Shown one piece after another: positions 55,075 to 62,689 of a DNA stretch of 64,000 bases. Position 1 is the stretch's first letter. Every line of letters begins with the position of its first letter. The stretch spans positions 7,068,001 through 7,132,000 of the forward strand of contig NZ_CP019082.1 of NCBI RefSeq assembly GCF_001956985.1, in the 5' to 3' direction. The position numbers and the translations under genes are program-made. The notes beneath the pieces were generated by a model that worked only from the letters and a program-made list of their open reading frames with translations, did not search any database and was not told where the DNA came from. The stretch comes from Paludisphaera borealis (GTDB lineage Bacteria; Planctomycetota; Planctomycetia; Isosphaerales; Isosphaeraceae).

Positions 55075-55821
55075 GTGAACGATCAGCCGGACGCGATGAA
55101 CGAGCCTGCTCCGCCGTCGCGCAGGCGGCGCATCCGCCGGAATTTCGTGCGGTCGGCGGCGGGGGTCAGCCTGGTCGCGTCGATCGCCGTCGGCTCGTTC
55201 TTGCTCAAGCCGTACTACGGCAGCAATCTCGGGATCGTGGACCCGGGCCGCGTGATCCGCTCGGCCCAGCCGACGTCCGGCCTCAAGGACATGATCCGCG
55301 ACCACAAGCTCGCCTCGATCCTCAGCCTCCGGGGCGGTTCGCTTCGCGACTGGTATTATTCGAACGAGGTCGGCGTCGCGAAGGAAGCGGGGGTCGACTT
55401 CTACGACCTCTCCATGAGCGCCACGAAACGCCCCAAGCGTTCCGACCTGCTGCGGTTGATTGACGTGATGAACCGCTGCAAGTATCCCCTGCTGATCCAC
55501 TGCAAGGCGGGGGCCGACCGGACGGGGCTGGCGAGCGCGATCTACCGGATGGTCGTCCTCAAGGAGCCTCCCGAAACGGCTGTCGAGGCGTTCACGATCT
55601 ACCACAGCCACGTCCCGCTGTTCGGCACCCAGCAGCTCCACGAACCGATCGACGAGTACGCCGCGTGGCTCGCTCAGAACGCCCTGCCCCACACCCCCGA
55701 GCGATTCCGCGACTGGGTCATGAACACCTATCGGGCCGACGACCCGGCCGTCGAGCCGCCCCCCGTCCTCCCCGGCCCGCGGCATGCGCTGCAAGCGGAA
55801 ATCGGCGGTCATTCCGGGTAG
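55075..55821 (+). CDS. Membrane-anchored dual-specificity/tyrosine phosphatase
   Basis: A 248-residue protein. The N-terminus is charged, then a hydrophobic anchor (AAGVSLVASIAVGSFLL), then a DSP/PTP-like domain (SAQPTSGLKDMIRDHKLASI, LLIHCKAGADRTGLASAIY). The P-loop HCKAGADRT matches the catalytic CxxxxxR. It may act on proteins or phosphoinositide-like lipids. Its last 13 bases overlap the convergent beta-lactamase/NamZ gene. Confidence 0.85.
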   Translation: MNDQPDAMNEPAPPSRRRRIRRNFVRSAAGVSLVASIAVGSFLLKPYYGSNLGIVDPGRVIRSAQPTSGLKDMIRDHKLASILSLRGGSLRDWYYSNEVGVAKEAGVDFYDLSMSATKRPKRSDLLRLIDVMNRCKYPLLIHCKAGADRTGLASAIYRMVVLKEPPETAVEAFTIYHSHVPLFGTQQLHEPIDEYAAWLAQNALPHTPERFRDWVMNTYRADDPAVEPPPVLPGPRHALQAEIGGHSG

Positions 55822-58226
55822 ATCAAATAACGGTCGCGGACCTCGGCGAAGTCGGCGAGTTCTTGCACCCAGAGGCCCTCGATCCGCCCGGCGGTCTTAC
55901 CGTCAAGGATGGCCTGGTAGGTGGCGTGGTCGGCGAGCATGGGCTGAAGGCGGTCCGGCTTCCACTGGTCTTTGTAGCCCTTGCGCAGGGTCGAGGCGAG
56001 GCCGAGACCCAGCTTGATCGGGTCGAACGTCGACCAGTCGACGACCAGGATCTGCACGCCTCCGCAGCGCTCGCCCTTGTATTGCCGCTCGCTGGGGACG
56101 AACTCGATCGGCACGAACCGCGAGCCGGGGATCGAGGCGTCGTTGAGGGCCTTGGCCCACTCCGCCGGCTTGATCCAGGGGGCGCCGACGCGTTCGAACG
56201 GGGTGTCGGTGCCGCGTCCGGTCGCCAGGTTGGTCGCCTCCAGCCAGCCGACGCCGGGATAGAGCAAGGCTTCGGTGAGGCTCCGCATGTTCGGCGACGG
56301 ATTGACCCAGCGCAGGCCGGTGCGGTCGTAGGTCGCGTCCCGCGTCCAGCCCTCGCACGGGACGACTTCGAGGTCGGCCTCGATCTTTCGTTCGGTGTTG
56401 TAGAGCTTGGCCAGCTCGCCGACGGTCATCCCGTGGCGGATCGGGATCGAGTGGTAGGCGATGAACGATTCCTGGTCGTCGTCCCGCACCGGCCCCCCCA
56501 CGCCGAGCCCGCCGATCGGGTTGGGGCGGTCGAGCACGACCACCTTCTTCCCGGCGCTCTTGGCGGCTTCGAGCACGAGCCCGAGAGTCGATATGTACGT
56601 GTAATAGCGGACGCCGATGTCCTGGATGTCGTAGACGAGGACGTCGAGGTCGGCCAGGTCATCGGTGCTGGGCTTGCGCTTCTTGCCTTCGTAGAGGCTG
56701 ACGATCGGCAGCTTGGTCGCTTCGTCGACGTCGTTGGCGATCTTCTCGACGTCCAGCGCGCCTCGGACGCCGTGCTCGGGGCTGAACAGCCGGACGAGCT
56801 TGACCTCGGGGGCGTGGAATAGCACGTCGATCGTCGATCGGCCGTCGGCCGCCTGCCCCGTGTGGTTCGTGATCAGCCCGACCCGGCGGCCGCGCAGCGG
56901 GGCGAAATCCCGGCTCGCGAGGACGTCGATCCCGCACTTGACCGACAGGATCGGCGCGCGGCGAGCGGCCAAAACCGGCGGCGCGGGCTTGGGGGCGGGG
57001 GCCGGGAGATCGGTCACGGCGGCGGCGGCCAGCGTGGCGACCATCCTGCGCAGCGGGGTCGTCGAGCCGGCCTTGTTGTCGGGGTGGAGCCGGCTCGTGA
57101 GGATGATGACGTAGGCGCGGGTCTCGGGGTCGATCCAGATGCTGGTGCCGGTGAACCCGGTGTGGCCGAAGCTGGACGGGCCGAACAGCTCGCCGCGCGG
57201 GCTGCTGAAATCGGTCTCGACGTCCCAGCCCAGCCCCCGGCGCTGGCTGGGCGGCGTGTCGCCTGTGTCGAGCATCATCCGCACCGCGAGCGGGCTCAAA
57301 ATCCGCTTGCCGGACGGCGCGACTCCCTTGTTGAGCAGCGTCCGGGCGAGGGCGGACAGGTCGTCGGCCGTCGCGAACAGGCCCGCGTGACCGGCCACGC
57401 CGCCGAGCGCCCGGGATCGCGGGTCGTGAACCGCCCCTCGGAGCACGGGCTGGCCCGGCTCGGCGGGCTCGGTGGGGGCGATCCGGTCGACGTTCGGCCA
57501 TTTCGAGGCGTCGCCGGCCGTGGGGCGGAAATGGGCGTCGGTCATTCCGGCCGGCTGGTAGATCCGCTCGCGGGCGAACTGGTCGAGCGTCTGGCCCGAG
57601 ACCTTCTCGACCAACCGGCCGAGGATCTCGAAACCGACGTCGGAGTAGACGAACCGCTCGCCCGGCCGGAAGTCGAGGCTCAGCGCGGCGAGCTTCTTCC
57701 AGGCTTCTTCCGGTCCGTCCTTGTAGTCGCCGATCGCGTTGTCGGGCATGAGGCCGGCGCGGTGGCGCAACAGGTGCTCGATCGTGATCTGGCCCTTGCC
57801 GTGGTTGTCGAATTCGGGGAGGAACTTGATGAGCCGGTCGGAGAGCCGGATCTTGCCCTCGTCGATCAGGATCATGACCGACGTCGCCGTGGCGACCGGT
57901 TTGGTGAGCGAGGCCATGTCGAAGATCGTGTCGCGCGTCATCGGCTGTTCGGCCGGCTGGACGGCCCGGCGGCCGAACGCCTTGACGTAGCCGATCCGGT
58001 CGCCTCGGCCGACGAGGACCACCGCGCCAGGGAGCTTGGCCTGGGCCAGAGCGGCCTCAACGGCCGCGTCGAGGCGATGGAGACGGTCGGCGTCGAAGCC
58101 GATACCGCCCGCGTCGGCCGTCGGAGTCGCGGCGGGAGCGTCCTGAGCGCGGGCCTCGCCGAGGCCGAGAACCCCAAGCCCCACGAACAACCATGTTGCA
58201 AACGGTCCGGCTGCCGATGGTTTCAC
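55809..58226 (-). CDS. Serine hydrolase / DUF1343 (NamZ) fusion, exported
   Basis: An 805-residue protein. After a signal peptide (FATWLFVGLGVLGLGEARAQ), residues 35-420 are a class C beta-lactamase-like serine hydrolase with the catalytic SLTK motif in DMASLTKPVATATSVM and YSDVGFEILG as the second motif. Residues 430-800 are a DUF1343/NamZ domain (GLITNHTGQAADGRSTIDVL, FSPEHGVRGALDVEKI, VLDRPNPIGGLGVGGPVRDD). NamZ enzymes are exo-N-acetylmuramidases, so the pair may act on peptidoglycan fragments. The GTG at 58226 is preferred over ATG 58283 because it has AGGA upstream and a standard signal peptide. Confidence 0.82.
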   Translation of the reverse strand: MKPSAAGPFATWLFVGLGVLGLGEARAQDAPAATPTADAGGIGFDADRLHRLDAAVEAALAQAKLPGAVVLVGRGDRIGYVKAFGRRAVQPAEQPMTRDTIFDMASLTKPVATATSVMILIDEGKIRLSDRLIKFLPEFDNHGKGQITIEHLLRHRAGLMPDNAIGDYKDGPEEAWKKLAALSLDFRPGERFVYSDVGFEILGRLVEKVSGQTLDQFARERIYQPAGMTDAHFRPTAGDASKWPNVDRIAPTEPAEPGQPVLRGAVHDPRSRALGGVAGHAGLFATADDLSALARTLLNKGVAPSGKRILSPLAVRMMLDTGDTPPSQRRGLGWDVETDFSSPRGELFGPSSFGHTGFTGTSIWIDPETRAYVIILTSRLHPDNKAGSTTPLRRMVATLAAAAVTDLPAPAPKPAPPVLAARRAPILSVKCGIDVLASRDFAPLRGRRVGLITNHTGQAADGRSTIDVLFHAPEVKLVRLFSPEHGVRGALDVEKIANDVDEATKLPIVSLYEGKKRKPSTDDLADLDVLVYDIQDIGVRYYTYISTLGLVLEAAKSAGKKVVVLDRPNPIGGLGVGGPVRDDDQESFIAYHSIPIRHGMTVGELAKLYNTERKIEADLEVVPCEGWTRDATYDRTGLRWVNPSPNMRSLTEALLYPGVGWLEATNLATGRGTDTPFERVGAPWIKPAEWAKALNDASIPGSRFVPIEFVPSERQYKGERCGGVQILVVDWSTFDPIKLGLGLASTLRKGYKDQWKPDRLQPMLADHATYQAILDGKTAGRIEGLWVQELADFAEVRDRYLIYPE

Positions 58227-58403
58227 GATCGTGACGTCCTGACTGAACGGCTGAGGAAGGGACACGATGCACGACGCGACCATTCTAGCGTGGCCGGCAG
58301 GCGCTCGCCGCGCCCTGGCCGCCGAAGCCGGGGCGCGCGAAAGCGGCGAGGGCCGTCGAGGGGACCTCGCCGCTTGGCGAGCACGTCGCTTGGAAGCGGG
58401 GGA

Positions 58404-58685: not shown

Positions 58686-59759
58686 TCAATAGGCGTCCGA
58701 GCTGACGATTTCGCCCCGCCCACGGGTGGCGAGCTTGCGATAGACGCCCGCGGTGAGCTGGCCGTTCGAGGGATTCGGGGCCCCGACGACCTCGATCGAG
58801 TCCTTGATGAAGTGGACGCTGCCGTCGCCGAACAGGAAGTTCACCCCGCCCGGATGCATGCTCCGGAAACCCCACTGCCCCATGTTCTGGAGCTGGAGGG
58901 CGGGGTTCAGGTCCCAATCGGCGTAATAGGTGGAATCGCCGCCCGGCTCGGGGATCAGCACCTGGGAGTTGGGCTTGGCCACCGTGGTGGCGAAGGCGAA
59001 GATCCGGCTGACGCCGGGGCCGACGTTCGAGCCGTACCAGGCGTCTTGAGTCCACTGGTAGAACCAATCGCCGTCGGCGTCGTTCTTGAATTTGGAGGTC
59101 TCACCGACGAACAGCGTGTTGCTCAGGCCGTCCGTCACGGCCGAGACGGGGTAGTTGTAATCGGCGTTGAACATGCCGTCGGACTCGATGGTGGGGGAGC
59201 CGGAAGTGGGACAGCCGTTCCACCAGTGCATGACGTCCTTGTTGCCCAGCGATCCACCATAAGAGGACTGGGAGCGACCGGCGACGTTCTTGGGATAGGA
59301 TCGCGACAGCCCGTCCGACGGGCAGATGTAGGAGCTCACGGCCGAATTGTAGGCCGTGCTGTTCATCGCCGCGCCGTTCGCCGACCCGACGCCGTAGGGG
59401 GACGCGGAGTCGAGCGAGGGGACCATGAAGTTGATGGCGTTGTAGATGGAGGCCTGCTCCATCTGCGGCAGGATGAAGGCGAAGAACGTGTGGCGGCGGG
59501 GCACGGCGCAATCCTGGCTGGCACCGCCGCCGTTGCGGATCGAGCCCGGCGGGTAGGTCCCCTGGGCGCTCTCGTAGTTGGCCAGGCCCAGGCCGATCTG
59601 CTTGAGGTTGTTCGTGCACTGAGCGCGACGGGCGGCCTCGCGGGCCGATTGCACGGCCGGAAGCAAGAGGGCGATCAAGACGGCGATGATGGCGATGACG
59701 ACCAGAAGCTCAATCAGCGTGAAGGCTTTTCGTTTGGACGAATGCAAGCATGAGAACAT
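58686..59759 (-). CDS. DUF1559 prepilin-like protein
   Basis: A 357-residue protein with a type IV prepilin-like N-terminus: KRKAFTLIELLVVIAIIAVL then LIALLLPAVQSAREAARR. The C-terminus carries the H-x9-DG box as HPGGVNFLFGDGSVHFIKDS. DUF1559 proteins are expanded in planctomycetes; their function is unknown. GAGG precedes ATG 59759 by about 11 bases, just downstream of a run of eight T on the minus strand (59775-59782). Confidence 0.9.
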   Translation of the reverse strand: MFSCLHSSKRKAFTLIELLVVIAIIAVLIALLLPAVQSAREAARRAQCTNNLKQIGLGLANYESAQGTYPPGSIRNGGGASQDCAVPRRHTFFAFILPQMEQASIYNAINFMVPSLDSASPYGVGSANGAAMNSTAYNSAVSSYICPSDGLSRSYPKNVAGRSQSSYGGSLGNKDVMHWWNGCPTSGSPTIESDGMFNADYNYPVSAVTDGLSNTLFVGETSKFKNDADGDWFYQWTQDAWYGSNVGPGVSRIFAFATTVAKPNSQVLIPEPGGDSTYYADWDLNPALQLQNMGQWGFRSMHPGGVNFLFGDGSVHFIKDSIEVVGAPNPSNGQLTAGVYRKLATRGRGEIVSSDAY

Positions 59760-59882: not shown

Positions 59883-60074
59883 TCAGTGGGCGGGCTTCAT
59901 GATCTCGACCTTCGACTTCTCGGGAGCGGGAAGGGAGCCGAGTTCGTCCCCCTTCGTGCTGAAAGCGACGACCGGAGGCGGCTCGCCGCCGTAGCGGGCC
60001 AGGGGAAGACTCGTGAGGCCGAGCGTGAAGACCAGCAGCCTGGACCGGGCTCGCGAGTGTGTGTGCATCGTCAT
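59883..60074 (-). CDS. Small possible exported peptide upstream of DUF1559
   Basis: A 63-residue frame (MTMHTHSRARSRLLVFTLGL then TSLPLARYGG) that looks like a short signal-like N-terminus with a charged tail. AAGGGC precedes ATG 60074 by a few bases. No family was recognised. It lies 123 bases upstream of the DUF1559 gene on the same strand; a run of eight T in between could act as an attenuator. Confidence 0.45.
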   Translation of the reverse strand: MTMHTHSRARSRLLVFTLGLTSLPLARYGGEPPPVVAFSTKGDELGSLPAPEKSKVEIMKPAH

Positions 60075-60190: not shown

Positions 60191-60304
60191 GGAAACAGCT
60201 GGGCGATGTTCAGTGATTGCGTGCCAGGTTCGCTCGGTCGGTTGGGGACCGACGTCGTTTCGGTCGGAGCAAGGGCCGCCGTGTCGCCTCGGCTGAGCGA
60301 GGAT

Positions 60305-60930
60305 GAAAAAGACCGGCCAGCGAGCCGGCTCGTCGCGACCACCTCTCCGTTAGTCGGTCAGAAACAAGATCACTGGCCGGTGCGCTCAGGGTTCGAGGAT
60401 TCGACGGAACGGTCGAATCGGAACCCACGTAAAAAACCGGTCAAAGAACCGACTCCTGACGACTACCTCTCCCTTAGTCGTCAGAAACCGGATCAATGAC
60501 CGGTTAGCTCGGGGATCGGCGACCCGACGTCGCCGTCGGGCCGAAACCAACTTGGAAAAAACCGGTCAGAGAGCCGATTCCCCACGACTACCTCTCCCTT
60601 AGTCGTCGGAAACCGATTCAACCAACCGGTTGGCTCTTGGCTCGACGATCCGACGCCTTTCGCCGGATCGGAACCGCTTGGAAAAAACCGGTCAGAGAGC
60701 CGATTCCCCACGACTACCTCTCCCTTAGTCGTGAAAAACCGATTCAACTAACCGGTTGGCTCTTGGCTCGACGCTCCGACGCCTTTCGTCGGATCGGAAC
60801 CGCTTGGAAAAAACCGGTCAGAGAGCCGATCCCTGACGACTACCTCTCCCTTAGTCGTCAGAAACCGATTCAACTAACCGGTTGGCTTCGAGGCTCGACG
60901 ATCCGACGCCTTTCGTCGGATCGGAACCTG
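60305..60930. repeat. Five-unit tandem array of covarying stem-loops
   Basis: Unit starts are at 60305, 60431, 60556, 60682 and 60808, giving periods of 126, 125, 126 and 126. Each unit has an outer stem (ACCGGTCA type), an inner stem (up to CTGACGACTA / TAGTCGTCAG) with a 9-base loop CCTCTCCCT, and a separate hairpin (GATCCGACG / CGTCGGATC in copy 5). Stem bases change in pairs between copies: outer C60317-G60376 in copy 1 is T60441-A60499 in copy 2; inner G-C in copies 2 and 5 is C60709-G60733 in copy 4; hairpin T60401-A60416 in copy 1 is C60903-G60919 in copy 5. On the minus strand each outer stem is followed by five or six T. Confidence 0.85.
60431..60557 (-). ncRNA. Candidate structured RNA unit (best example, copy 2)
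   Basis: Copy 2 has all three stems perfect: outer AACCGGTCA / TGACCGGTT (60435-60443, 60497-60505), inner CTGACGACTA / TAGTCGTCAG (60456-60465, 60475-60484), and hairpin CCCGACG / CGTCGGG (60523-60529, 60534-60540). Read on the minus strand, the loop is AGGGAGAGG and the outer stem ends in six T, the form of an intrinsic terminator. Strand and expression are inferred. Confidence 0.45.
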
Positions 60931-60936
60931 TGTGAG

Positions 60937-61011
60937 AAAGGGCGAGCGGGGGGTCGTGCGAGGCATCCCGCCCGCCCTTTGGCGGGGCAATCGCTTTCAC
61001 GATTGTCGCCA
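60937..61011. repeat. Two hairpins after the array
   Basis: AAAGGGCGAGCGGG (60937-60950) pairs with CCCGCCCGCCCTTT (60967-60980) with one G-T wobble. Just after it, TGGCG and CAATCG (60980-60993) pair with CGATTG and CGCCA (61000-61011). They differ in sequence from the array units. Confidence 0.6.
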
Positions 61012-61411
61012 GTGGGGTGGCTTCTTATAAGTTAGTGAGGGGCTGTTGTCGGCCCTCGTGATCTCGTCGTTTGCGTCTCTCTCGTTTTCACCGCGTCTCG
61101 TCGTTCAGGACGCTGGGGGTAAAAAGCAAAGGCAGTGCCAGAACTCCGGCGCGGCGGCGAGAACTGGGCATTTGGGGGCTTCAAGAATCCCGCGCCGATT
61201 GCCGATTTCTTGAGAAGTCAAAAGGTTACGGCGAGCGAAAAGTTTCGGCGAGGCAGCCGAAAAAAGGGATGTCGGACCGAGGTTCAACATTCTGAGAAGG
61301 GCTTGAAGGGCGTTGGTGCACAAAATTCAGGCAGGGGCTGCTCGGATCTGCATCGGCCTGCCAGGGACATTGATTGAGTGAGCCGACGGCTCGGATGGGA
61401 CCGACCGATTT

Positions 61412-62689
61412 ATGGGTGCCGAGGAACGCAAAGCACAGCGGACAGCCTTCTCGGGGCTACTCAAGGCGTTCGAGGCCTGGGGCGGCGAGGGCGATGCGGA
61501 TTTGCTGGTCGACTGGCTGGCGAACGAACTGGACGTCGACGGTGCGCCGGTTCGGCTGGCGATCGCCGACTGGGCGCCGGCGCTCGACCTGCTGGCGCGC
61601 GCTCGCGAAGCTCGTCCCGGCTTGCCGGAATCGATCGACGAGCGGCTGCTGGCGTTCTTTCGGATGCTGTTGAGGTTTTCCAAGCCTGACGGCCGCCCGG
61701 CGACGCTTACCGCCGACCTGGAGCCGGCGGACGCGGTGCGCGAGCGGCTGGCGCGGCTCGGCGACGCCTTCCCCGAGTCCGACGCCGCGCGGGTGCTCGG
61801 CTGGTGGTATCCGAGCCGTGAAGTCGAGCCGATCCCGCCCCCCCTGCCCGCCTGGTCGAGTCCCGACCGGGTGCTGGGCGTCTTGCGGGCGGACTGGACG
61901 TCGCGCGGCGACCTCGTCGTCTTCGATCACCGCAAGGCCGGCGGCCCGACGCGGCTGGAGGTCTTCGGCGCGGGCCAGTCCTGGCTGGGCGATTCCTGGC
62001 AAGCGCTGGGGGCCGGGGACGTCAAGACGAGCGTCGGCAAGCCGTTGAGCTGGACGACCAGCTCGAACGCCGACGTCGCCGAGTGGACGTTTCGCGCGGG
62101 GACGCTGCGCGTCACTCGCACGGCCGTGATGCTGCGAGGCCGCAAGATCGCGATCCTCGCCGACATGGTCGAGGGGATCAAACCGCCGACGAGCCTGGAA
62201 ACGCGCTGGGAGTTGCCGCCGGGGAGGATCGCCGAGCCGATCGCCGACTCGCGGGCGTTGCTGCTGCGGACCGGAGTGGCCGGGGCGTCGGCCCAGGCGA
62301 TCCCGTTGGCCTTGCCATCGCTGCCGTACCAGACCGATCGCGGGCGGTTCGGCTTCGAGCCGGCCACGCGGGAACTCGTGCTTTCGCAGGCCGCGACCGG
62401 GGCGCGGGCGTGGCTGCCGCTGCTGCTCTCGTGGGACCACGCTCGACACCGCAAGCGGTTGCAATGGCGGGTCTTGACGGTCTCGGAGAATTCCCAGGTC
62501 TGTCCGCCCGAGACCGCCTGGGCGGCCCGGGTAAGCTGGGGACGAACCGAGACCTTCGTCGTCTACCGCAGCCTCGGGCCGACGGCCCGGAGGTCGTTCC
62601 TCGGCTGCTCGACGTCCGCCCGGCTGTTTGTAGGTCGATTCACGCCCGAGGGGGACGTCGAGCCGATCGTCGCGATCAAGGAATCATGA
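61412..62689 (+). CDS. Hypothetical protein, possibly heparinase-like C-terminal half
   Basis: A 425-residue soluble protein with an alpha-helical N-terminal third (LLVDWLANELDVDGAPVRLA, SIDERLLAFFRMLLRFSKPD) and a beta-rich C-terminal two-thirds (RAGTLRVTRTAVMLRGRKIA). The beta part loosely resembles the C-terminal sandwich of heparinase II/III-type proteins, but no catalytic residues can be assigned. No signal peptide. The gene has the same high GC as its neighbours. Confidence 0.6.
   Translation: MGAEERKAQRTAFSGLLKAFEAWGGEGDADLLVDWLANELDVDGAPVRLAIADWAPALDLLARAREARPGLPESIDERLLAFFRMLLRFSKPDGRPATLTADLEPADAVRERLARLGDAFPESDAARVLGWWYPSREVEPIPPPLPAWSSPDRVLGVLRADWTSRGDLVVFDHRKAGGPTRLEVFGAGQSWLGDSWQALGAGDVKTSVGKPLSWTTSSNADVAEWTFRAGTLRVTRTAVMLRGRKIAILADMVEGIKPPTSLETRWELPPGRIAEPIADSRALLLRTGVAGASAQAIPLALPSLPYQTDRGRFGFEPATRELVLSQAATGARAWLPLLLSWDHARHRKRLQWRVLTVSENSQVCPPETAWAARVSWGRTETFVVYRSLGPTARRSFLGCSTSARLFVGRFTPEGDVEPIVAIKES

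Follow-up and report, generated by a model that had tools for sequence, protein, structure and literature searches.

The window analysed here is a stretch of 64,000 nucleotides from Paludisphaera borealis (contig NZ_CP019082.1, positions 7,068,001 to 7,132,000), and it contains at 60305-60935 a tandem array of five units of about 126 bp, with a mean column identity of 85% in the unit alignment. Tandem Repeats Finder reports the same period (126 bp, 4.1 copies, 87% matches) for 60412-60928. Divergently oriented from the array, which is read on the minus strand (see below), lies c0 (61412..62689, plus strand), encoding a 425-aa protein with a heparinase-III-like predicted fold. On the other side, a 62-codon ORF (59889-60074) and a DUF1559 prepilin-like gene (58686-59759) are found on the minus strand, and a beta-lactamase/NamZ fusion gene (55809-58283) lies beyond these two, as seen from the array.

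The units had been described in the initial annotation as stem-loops in which bases change while pairing is kept, and this is confirmed on reading the bases of all three stems concerned. The outer-stem pair C60317-G60376 is replaced by T60441-A60499, the inner stem contains C60709-G60733 with a C-C combination in copy 3, and in the second hairpin T60401-A60416 gives way to C60903-G60919. Across the five units, double changes occur at 5 pairs, compared with 1.6 in shuffled controls (none of 500 shuffles reached 5), and 94% of cells are paired, a value that falls to 25-48% once the partner strand is slid. Further pair types are no more numerous than in shuffles (19 versus 18.4). Covariation within the five window units alone is modest and real.

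Homologous loci were collected with three models. The first (R1), a covariance model built from the five window units alone to represent the larger hairpin, P4, gave matches in each of the six genomes sampled from the window's genus and in several further Isosphaeraceae genera. On reading these loci, a second conserved block, consisting of hairpins P1 and P2, was found upstream of the array. Model R2 was built from 23 P1-P2 sequences, and model R3 from 37 P4 hairpins that were picked by loop motif, so that R3 matches lean towards that loop. The R2 search returned 87 matches, of which 49 (forward strand, at least 68 bits) were kept and correspond to 46 loci when one domain is counted per locus; the 38 rows dropped were on the opposite strand or weak (at most 37.5 bits). 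Among the weak matches, L206 (minus strand), L210 (plus strand), L211 and L230 have neither the P2 loop core nor a P4. R3 returned 75 matches, and removal of three on the opposite strand left 72.

By the R2 search, the RNA is present in 39 of the 45 Isosphaeraceae genomes, and in 24 of the 26 of good quality. It was not found in any of the four g6 genomes, nor in two that are incomplete (68% and 81%). The class sample comprised 397 genomes including these 45, and outside the family 13 of the 352 others matched R2 weakly, with E-values of 1.6e-7 or worse. The best three of these 13 matches were rejected as simple GC-rich hairpins that have neither the loops nor the promoter element described below. 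Three genomes of genus g17 have two RNA loci each (G021, including L167; G046, with L217 and L218; G047, with L219 and L220). The RNA of L167 has as its neighbour, in place of c0, a 468-aa ORF that groups with none of the genes flanking the RNA elsewhere.

The strand on which the molecule is read can be deduced from wobble pairs and folding. When the 37 homologous P4 hairpins are read on the minus strand, 72 G-U cells are seen against 14 A-C cells, and the five window units fold better on this strand (z-scores relative to shuffles of -3.29, -7.14, -5.13, -5.25 and -7.46) than on the plus strand (-2.46, -5.56, -2.23, -2.92 and -3.40). Both the wobble asymmetry and the fold scores indicate an RNA read leftward and rule out one read from the plus strand. 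In homologues, covariation extends well beyond that of the window. The 37 P4 sequences show double changes in 17 of 19 pairs, with 132 double-change cells versus 43.8 in shuffles, and 90% of cells are paired (21-45% when slid). For the 23 P1-P2 sequences, double changes occur in 8 of 18 pairs (13 cells versus 1.9 shuffled), with 99.8% of cells paired, and in the whole RNA, taken once per locus (19 sequences), in 32 of 47 predicted pairs. The locus thus almost certainly encodes a structured RNA. That selection acts on a folded molecule, as had been proposed, is borne out by these alignments of relatives from other genomes of the family. The accompanying claim that recent copying is not involved does not hold to the same extent: mean P4 likeness is 0.835 within the window's genome and 0.683 between different congeners, which points to copying or homogenisation besides structural selection.

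These results also bear on simpler readings of the array as a coding repeat, a mobile repeat of the REP/BIME type or a cluster of DNA-binding sites. In favour of coding, the period of 126 is divisible by three and ORFs of 84, 104 and 132 aa extend into the array. Of the 33 loop-to-loop distances in ten arrays, however, 19 are not divisible by three, and neither are two of the window's four. Against a mobile repeat, P4 is confined to a single locus in its own genome, the next best match having an E-value of 5, and the excess of G-U over A-C means selection on RNA and not on DNA. We regard all of these readings as scarcely credible.

A longer conserved RNA contains the array as its 3' part; it should start near 61114 and, judging from the promoter position, would be roughly 0.8 kb in length. 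All of its parts lie on the minus strand. A poorly conserved leader of about 90 nt (61026..61114; little conservation outside the genus), its start placed by the promoter element, separates that element from the conserved 5' domain P1-P2 (60928..61025; R2 E-value 7.8e-27, with covariation and a predicted fold). This domain consists of P1 (about 60980-61011), the 13-bp hairpin P2 (about 60938-60979), whose loop core CCTCGCACGACC lies at 60952-60963, and an unpaired CCACCCC. There follow, in transcription order, five units each composed of a hairpin P3 and a P4. Unit 1 (60808..60935), which has a run of six U, unit 2 (60682..60807), unit 3 (60556..60681) and unit 4 (60431..60555) all have the P4 loop GGGAGAGG, at 60843-60850, 60717-60724, 60591-60598 and 60466-60473, respectively. 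Unit 5 (60305..60430), the last and most diverged, carries the loop CGGAGAGG at 60342-60349 and a CTTTTT tail, and is likely to serve as the transcript terminator. In eight of ten arrays, a run of five or more T follows the final P4.

Upstream of the leader, at 61126..61140, is a perfect copy (10/10 consensus bases) of TGGCAC-N5-TTGC, which we take to be the -24/-12 element of sigma-54. At least nine of the ten consensus bases are present in 44 of the 46 loci, and eight in the other two; the same threshold is reached in 15 of 4600 shuffles and on none of the 46 opposite strands. The element starts 80-134 nt before the P1-P2 match, and GGCA and the final GC are invariant in all 46 copies. Transcription is expected to begin about 12 nt past the element, which corresponds to the start near 61114, and control of the RNA by sigma-54 is very probable.

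Sites for an enhancer-binding protein were sought in the upstream regions. No dyad common to more than three of the 44 regions was found in a dyad search, and a k-mer search returned a few A-rich 6-mers slightly above shuffles; neither search gave a convincing site. An imperfect inverted repeat, GGCAGG-N-CCTGCC, is seen at about 61328-61345 in the window and at the same place in L151-L153, some 190 bp upstream of the sigma-54 element in the window's genus; it was not recovered as a shared dyad in other genera. This repeat may represent an enhancer site, or else belong to the promoter of c0.

The genes surrounding the RNA were compared across 23 loci. In 21 of these the RNA stands head-to-head with c0. 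Within the family, c0 occurs in 35 of 45 genomes, always together with the RNA; the other ten comprise four genomes of genus g9 with the RNA alone and six genomes with neither. Relatives of c0 were found in 192 of 297 class genomes, 35 of them in the family, and of those outside it most of the matches listed sit within longer open frames. Where c0 relatives occur outside the family, the RNA model gave nothing credible. The c0 protein has no Pfam or NCBIfam match. Its predicted structure (mean pLDDT 91) matches heparinase III-type polysaccharide lyases in Foldseek, with E-values of 1.1e-13 for HepC and 3.3e-13 for BT4657, query-normalised TM-scores of 0.62-0.64 and 13-14% identity. The pairing of RNA and c0 suggests a link to polysaccharide turnover; the two lie on opposite strands, and the RNA also occurs without c0.

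Past the 3' end of the RNA, the genes differ between genera, which indicates a stand-alone RNA gene and not an attenuator. The initial annotation had considered an attenuator array, that is, a cis-acting leader for a downstream gene, and the window units do end in terminator-like runs of five or six U. This proposal is contradicted by the 23 loci, among which no conserved regulated gene is found; in addition, several internal units in congeners have no U-run, and the window array faces an ORF pair that begins about 230 nt beyond it and is absent from that place in congeners. In four of five congeners, no large gene comes between the RNA and a homologue of the NamZ fusion (cluster c4), so that the DUF1559 gene and the 62-codon ORF look like an insertion in this genome. 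An association with DUF1559 was rejected: among 80 loci found through the DUF1559 protein, no R1 match was better than E 0.09, and the gene therefore looks like an unrelated neighbour. A cis-acting role is accordingly very improbable.

The number of modules varies widely among the 46 RNAs. P4 is not recognisable in five, single in 31 and present in two or more copies in ten, up to a maximum of seven; these totals include the single P4 of L171, which lies outside the distance limit of the motif scan. Arrays of three to seven are found in six genomes of the window's genus, and of four in each of two g7 genomes, while G006 and G012 have two P4 each. The description of the locus as a tandem RNA is thus accurate for the window and too narrow for the family, where P4 is single in most relatives and the constant elements are the upstream domain and the sigma-54 promoter element. 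P1-P2 is itself doubled at three loci (L171, L204 and L207). Arrays of P4 and separate doublings of P1-P2 indicate that the modules multiply independently, and since P4 has multiplied in several genera, additional docking sites would seem to be tolerated or favoured. In the ten arrays, loop-to-loop spacing is 77-135 nt (for L154, the full copy series was used, including P4 copies missed by R3).

Three loci have an arrangement of their own. At L204 (G014) and L207 (G055), two P1-P2 domains stand in tandem after the sigma-54 element and P4 is not recognisable, and both genomes have a further RNA locus (L205 and L208) near c0, with one P4 and a variant P2 loop. L171 (G024) lies beside c0 and has two P2 hairpins and one P4.

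Stems and loops of P4 have evolved very differently: the stems vary freely and the loops are almost fixed. The loop reads NGGGAGAGG in 71 of the 72 forward matches of R3, a model trained on hairpins with this motif, and the single exception, ACGGAGAGG, is the window's own last unit. Matches of the window-only R1 in other genera that have P1-P2 show the same P4 loop. In relatives, P2 has a stem of 12-13 bp and a loop containing CCUCGCACGACC. The core of this loop is conserved at all 46 loci, also at the five in which no P4 is recognised, and is spelled differently at two loci from a single genus. That the loops hardly change while the stems vary freely suggests that a partner recognises the loops.

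One possible partner for each loop is the other loop. P2 and P4 loops are partly complementary in sequence (CCUC...CCC with GGG-A-GAGG) and might kiss, giving a compact tertiary structure or dimers. Neither loop varies enough for covariation, P2 is kept without a recognisable P4 in five of 46 loci, and arrays have up to seven P4 per single P2. Kissing as an obligatory feature is ruled out by the five loci, and we consider kissing in general improbable.

Our preferred explanation is that the locus encodes a sigma-54-driven, trans-acting decoy RNA. When some enhancer-binding protein is active, the sigma-54 promoter would fire leftward and produce a stand-alone non-coding RNA of about 0.8 kb, which would fold into the constant P1-P2 domain followed by a series of P3 and P4 units and end at the last P4, with its stem and U-run. 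Acting in trans, the RNA would present the apical loop GGGAGAGG on each P4 as a docking site, and more P4 would give more docking sites per transcript, making it a dose-adjustable decoy that pulls a partner off its other targets. Of these steps, action in trans is likely. Titration of a partner is the simplest mechanism and may well be correct, yet we hold it tentatively, at nearly as good a chance of holding as of failing; the decoy explanation as a whole carries the same tentative standing. Since 31 of the 46 RNAs have one P4 and five have none that is recognisable, multi-site titration cannot be the sole function, and P1-P2 must do something of its own.

The main rival to titration is a sigma-54-driven base-pairing sRNA, in which the P2 loop (CCUCGCACGACC), the unpaired CCACCCC and the P4 loop would be seeds for mRNAs and the array several copies of one seed. 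Long conserved unpaired runs are typical of seeds. Near-invariant loops on varying stems fit such a role, as does the retention of the P2 loop core at every locus, whether or not P4 is present. Sigma-54-dependent sRNAs are also known, CrcZ and CrcY being described as such (PMC6292655). The absence of Hfq speaks against base pairing: none was found in 40 genomes, by a search that was positive in five of 14 control genomes. A further point, of little weight, is that a 16-base P2-loop pattern occurs only once on either strand of its own genome, within the RNA itself, with no extended complement. Base pairing appears possible, as the lesser of the two prospects.

If the RNA is a decoy, a CsrA paralogue is the leading candidate for its partner. 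Copies of CsrA are numerous in the class: all 40 genomes sampled have the protein, in 2 to 17 copies, each of 25 family genomes has 4-13, and the window's own genome has 10. In that genome, one csrA copy (1867002-1867157) lies about 200 bases from fliW (1867365-1867715). CsrA is reported to bind GGA in hairpin loops (PMC7652899), and GGA is present in the loop of all 72 forward P4 matches of R3, itself trained on motif-picked hairpins. Tight binding of RsmE is reported for AGGGA pentaloops (PMC4005645). CsrA copies and P4 copies are weakly correlated (Spearman 0.44, p 0.03, 24 genomes, uncorrected for ancestry; 0.38, p 0.11, in the 18 genomes outside the window's genus).

Several observations argue against CsrA. 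The P4 loop, at 9 nt, is longer than the preferred hexaloop, and extra loop bases are reported to weaken RsmE binding (PMC4005645). ANGGA is found in only 42 of 72 P4 loops, and the near-invariance of eight loop bases is more than CsrA needs. Loops 77-135 nt apart are too distant for the bridging by a CsrA dimer reported for sites 10-63 nt apart (PMC7652899). Moreover, 24 of 25 family genomes encode FliW, which also antagonises CsrA. We consider it doubtful that CsrA is the partner, leading candidate as it is. The fullest version of the decoy explanation is slightly more doubtful again: a sigma-54-controlled decoy of the family's own, with P4 as a plug-in module and tandem duplication as the means of tuning its copy number (0-7), titrating one or more CsrA paralogues or a new hairpin-loop-binding protein in hosts without Hfq.

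Comparison with known systems places the RNA close to several of them. CsrB/CsrC and RsmX/Y/Z, which sequester CsrA/RsmA, are likewise stand-alone RNAs with GGA in hairpin loops and, in some members, repeated sites, and Rsm RNAs are also reported to duplicate, as in rsmX-2 (PMC7911923). The present family differs from them in its sigma-54 promoter element, its rigid 8-nt loop and its separate conserved P1-P2; most of its members have a single GGA hairpin, and only the 42 of 72 loops already mentioned have ANGGA. The Qrr sRNAs of Vibrio are sigma-54-driven, present as multiplied copies in separate genes, and act by Hfq-dependent base pairing. Sigma-54 and multiplication are shared with Qrr, but here the repeated hairpins would lie on one transcript. 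CrcZ and CrcY of Pseudomonadaceae have an RpoN-dependent promoter and a similar decoy logic, and CrcZ is described as antagonising Hfq-Crc (PMC6292655), whereas here Hfq was found in none of the 40 genomes searched and the RNA has no Rfam match. In working, then, the RNA resembles known sigma-54-driven or multi-site decoy RNAs, but it departs from CsrB/RsmZ in one tested feature, ANGGA, and likewise from the RNAs linked to Hfq.

No named family accounts for the RNA, in agreement with the initial annotation. Searches of Rfam 15 gave no match above the gathering threshold in the window or in 18 homologous loci, and at E-values up to 5 the region 60200-61420 matched four eukaryotic families at chance level. 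The structured RNA candidate Rhodopirellula-1 is also from Planctomycetes (PMC2864571). As described there, it occurs in Proteobacteria as well, and the table of that report lists it with no Rfam accession; this description sets it apart from the present RNA, with which it could nonetheless be identical. A full-text literature search found no described trans-acting RNA of Isosphaeraceae, and there was none among the matches listed for a broader search.

The finding places a strongly structured RNA in 39 of 45 genomes of a family for which the literature searched describes no trans-acting RNA. With its promoter class, its neighbour gene and a natural series of zero to seven modules, it makes the copy number of a putative decoy, and the evolution of that number, directly testable. 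It further prompts one to ask how so large a set of CsrA paralogues, 4-13 in each of 25 family genomes, is controlled where Hfq is missing.
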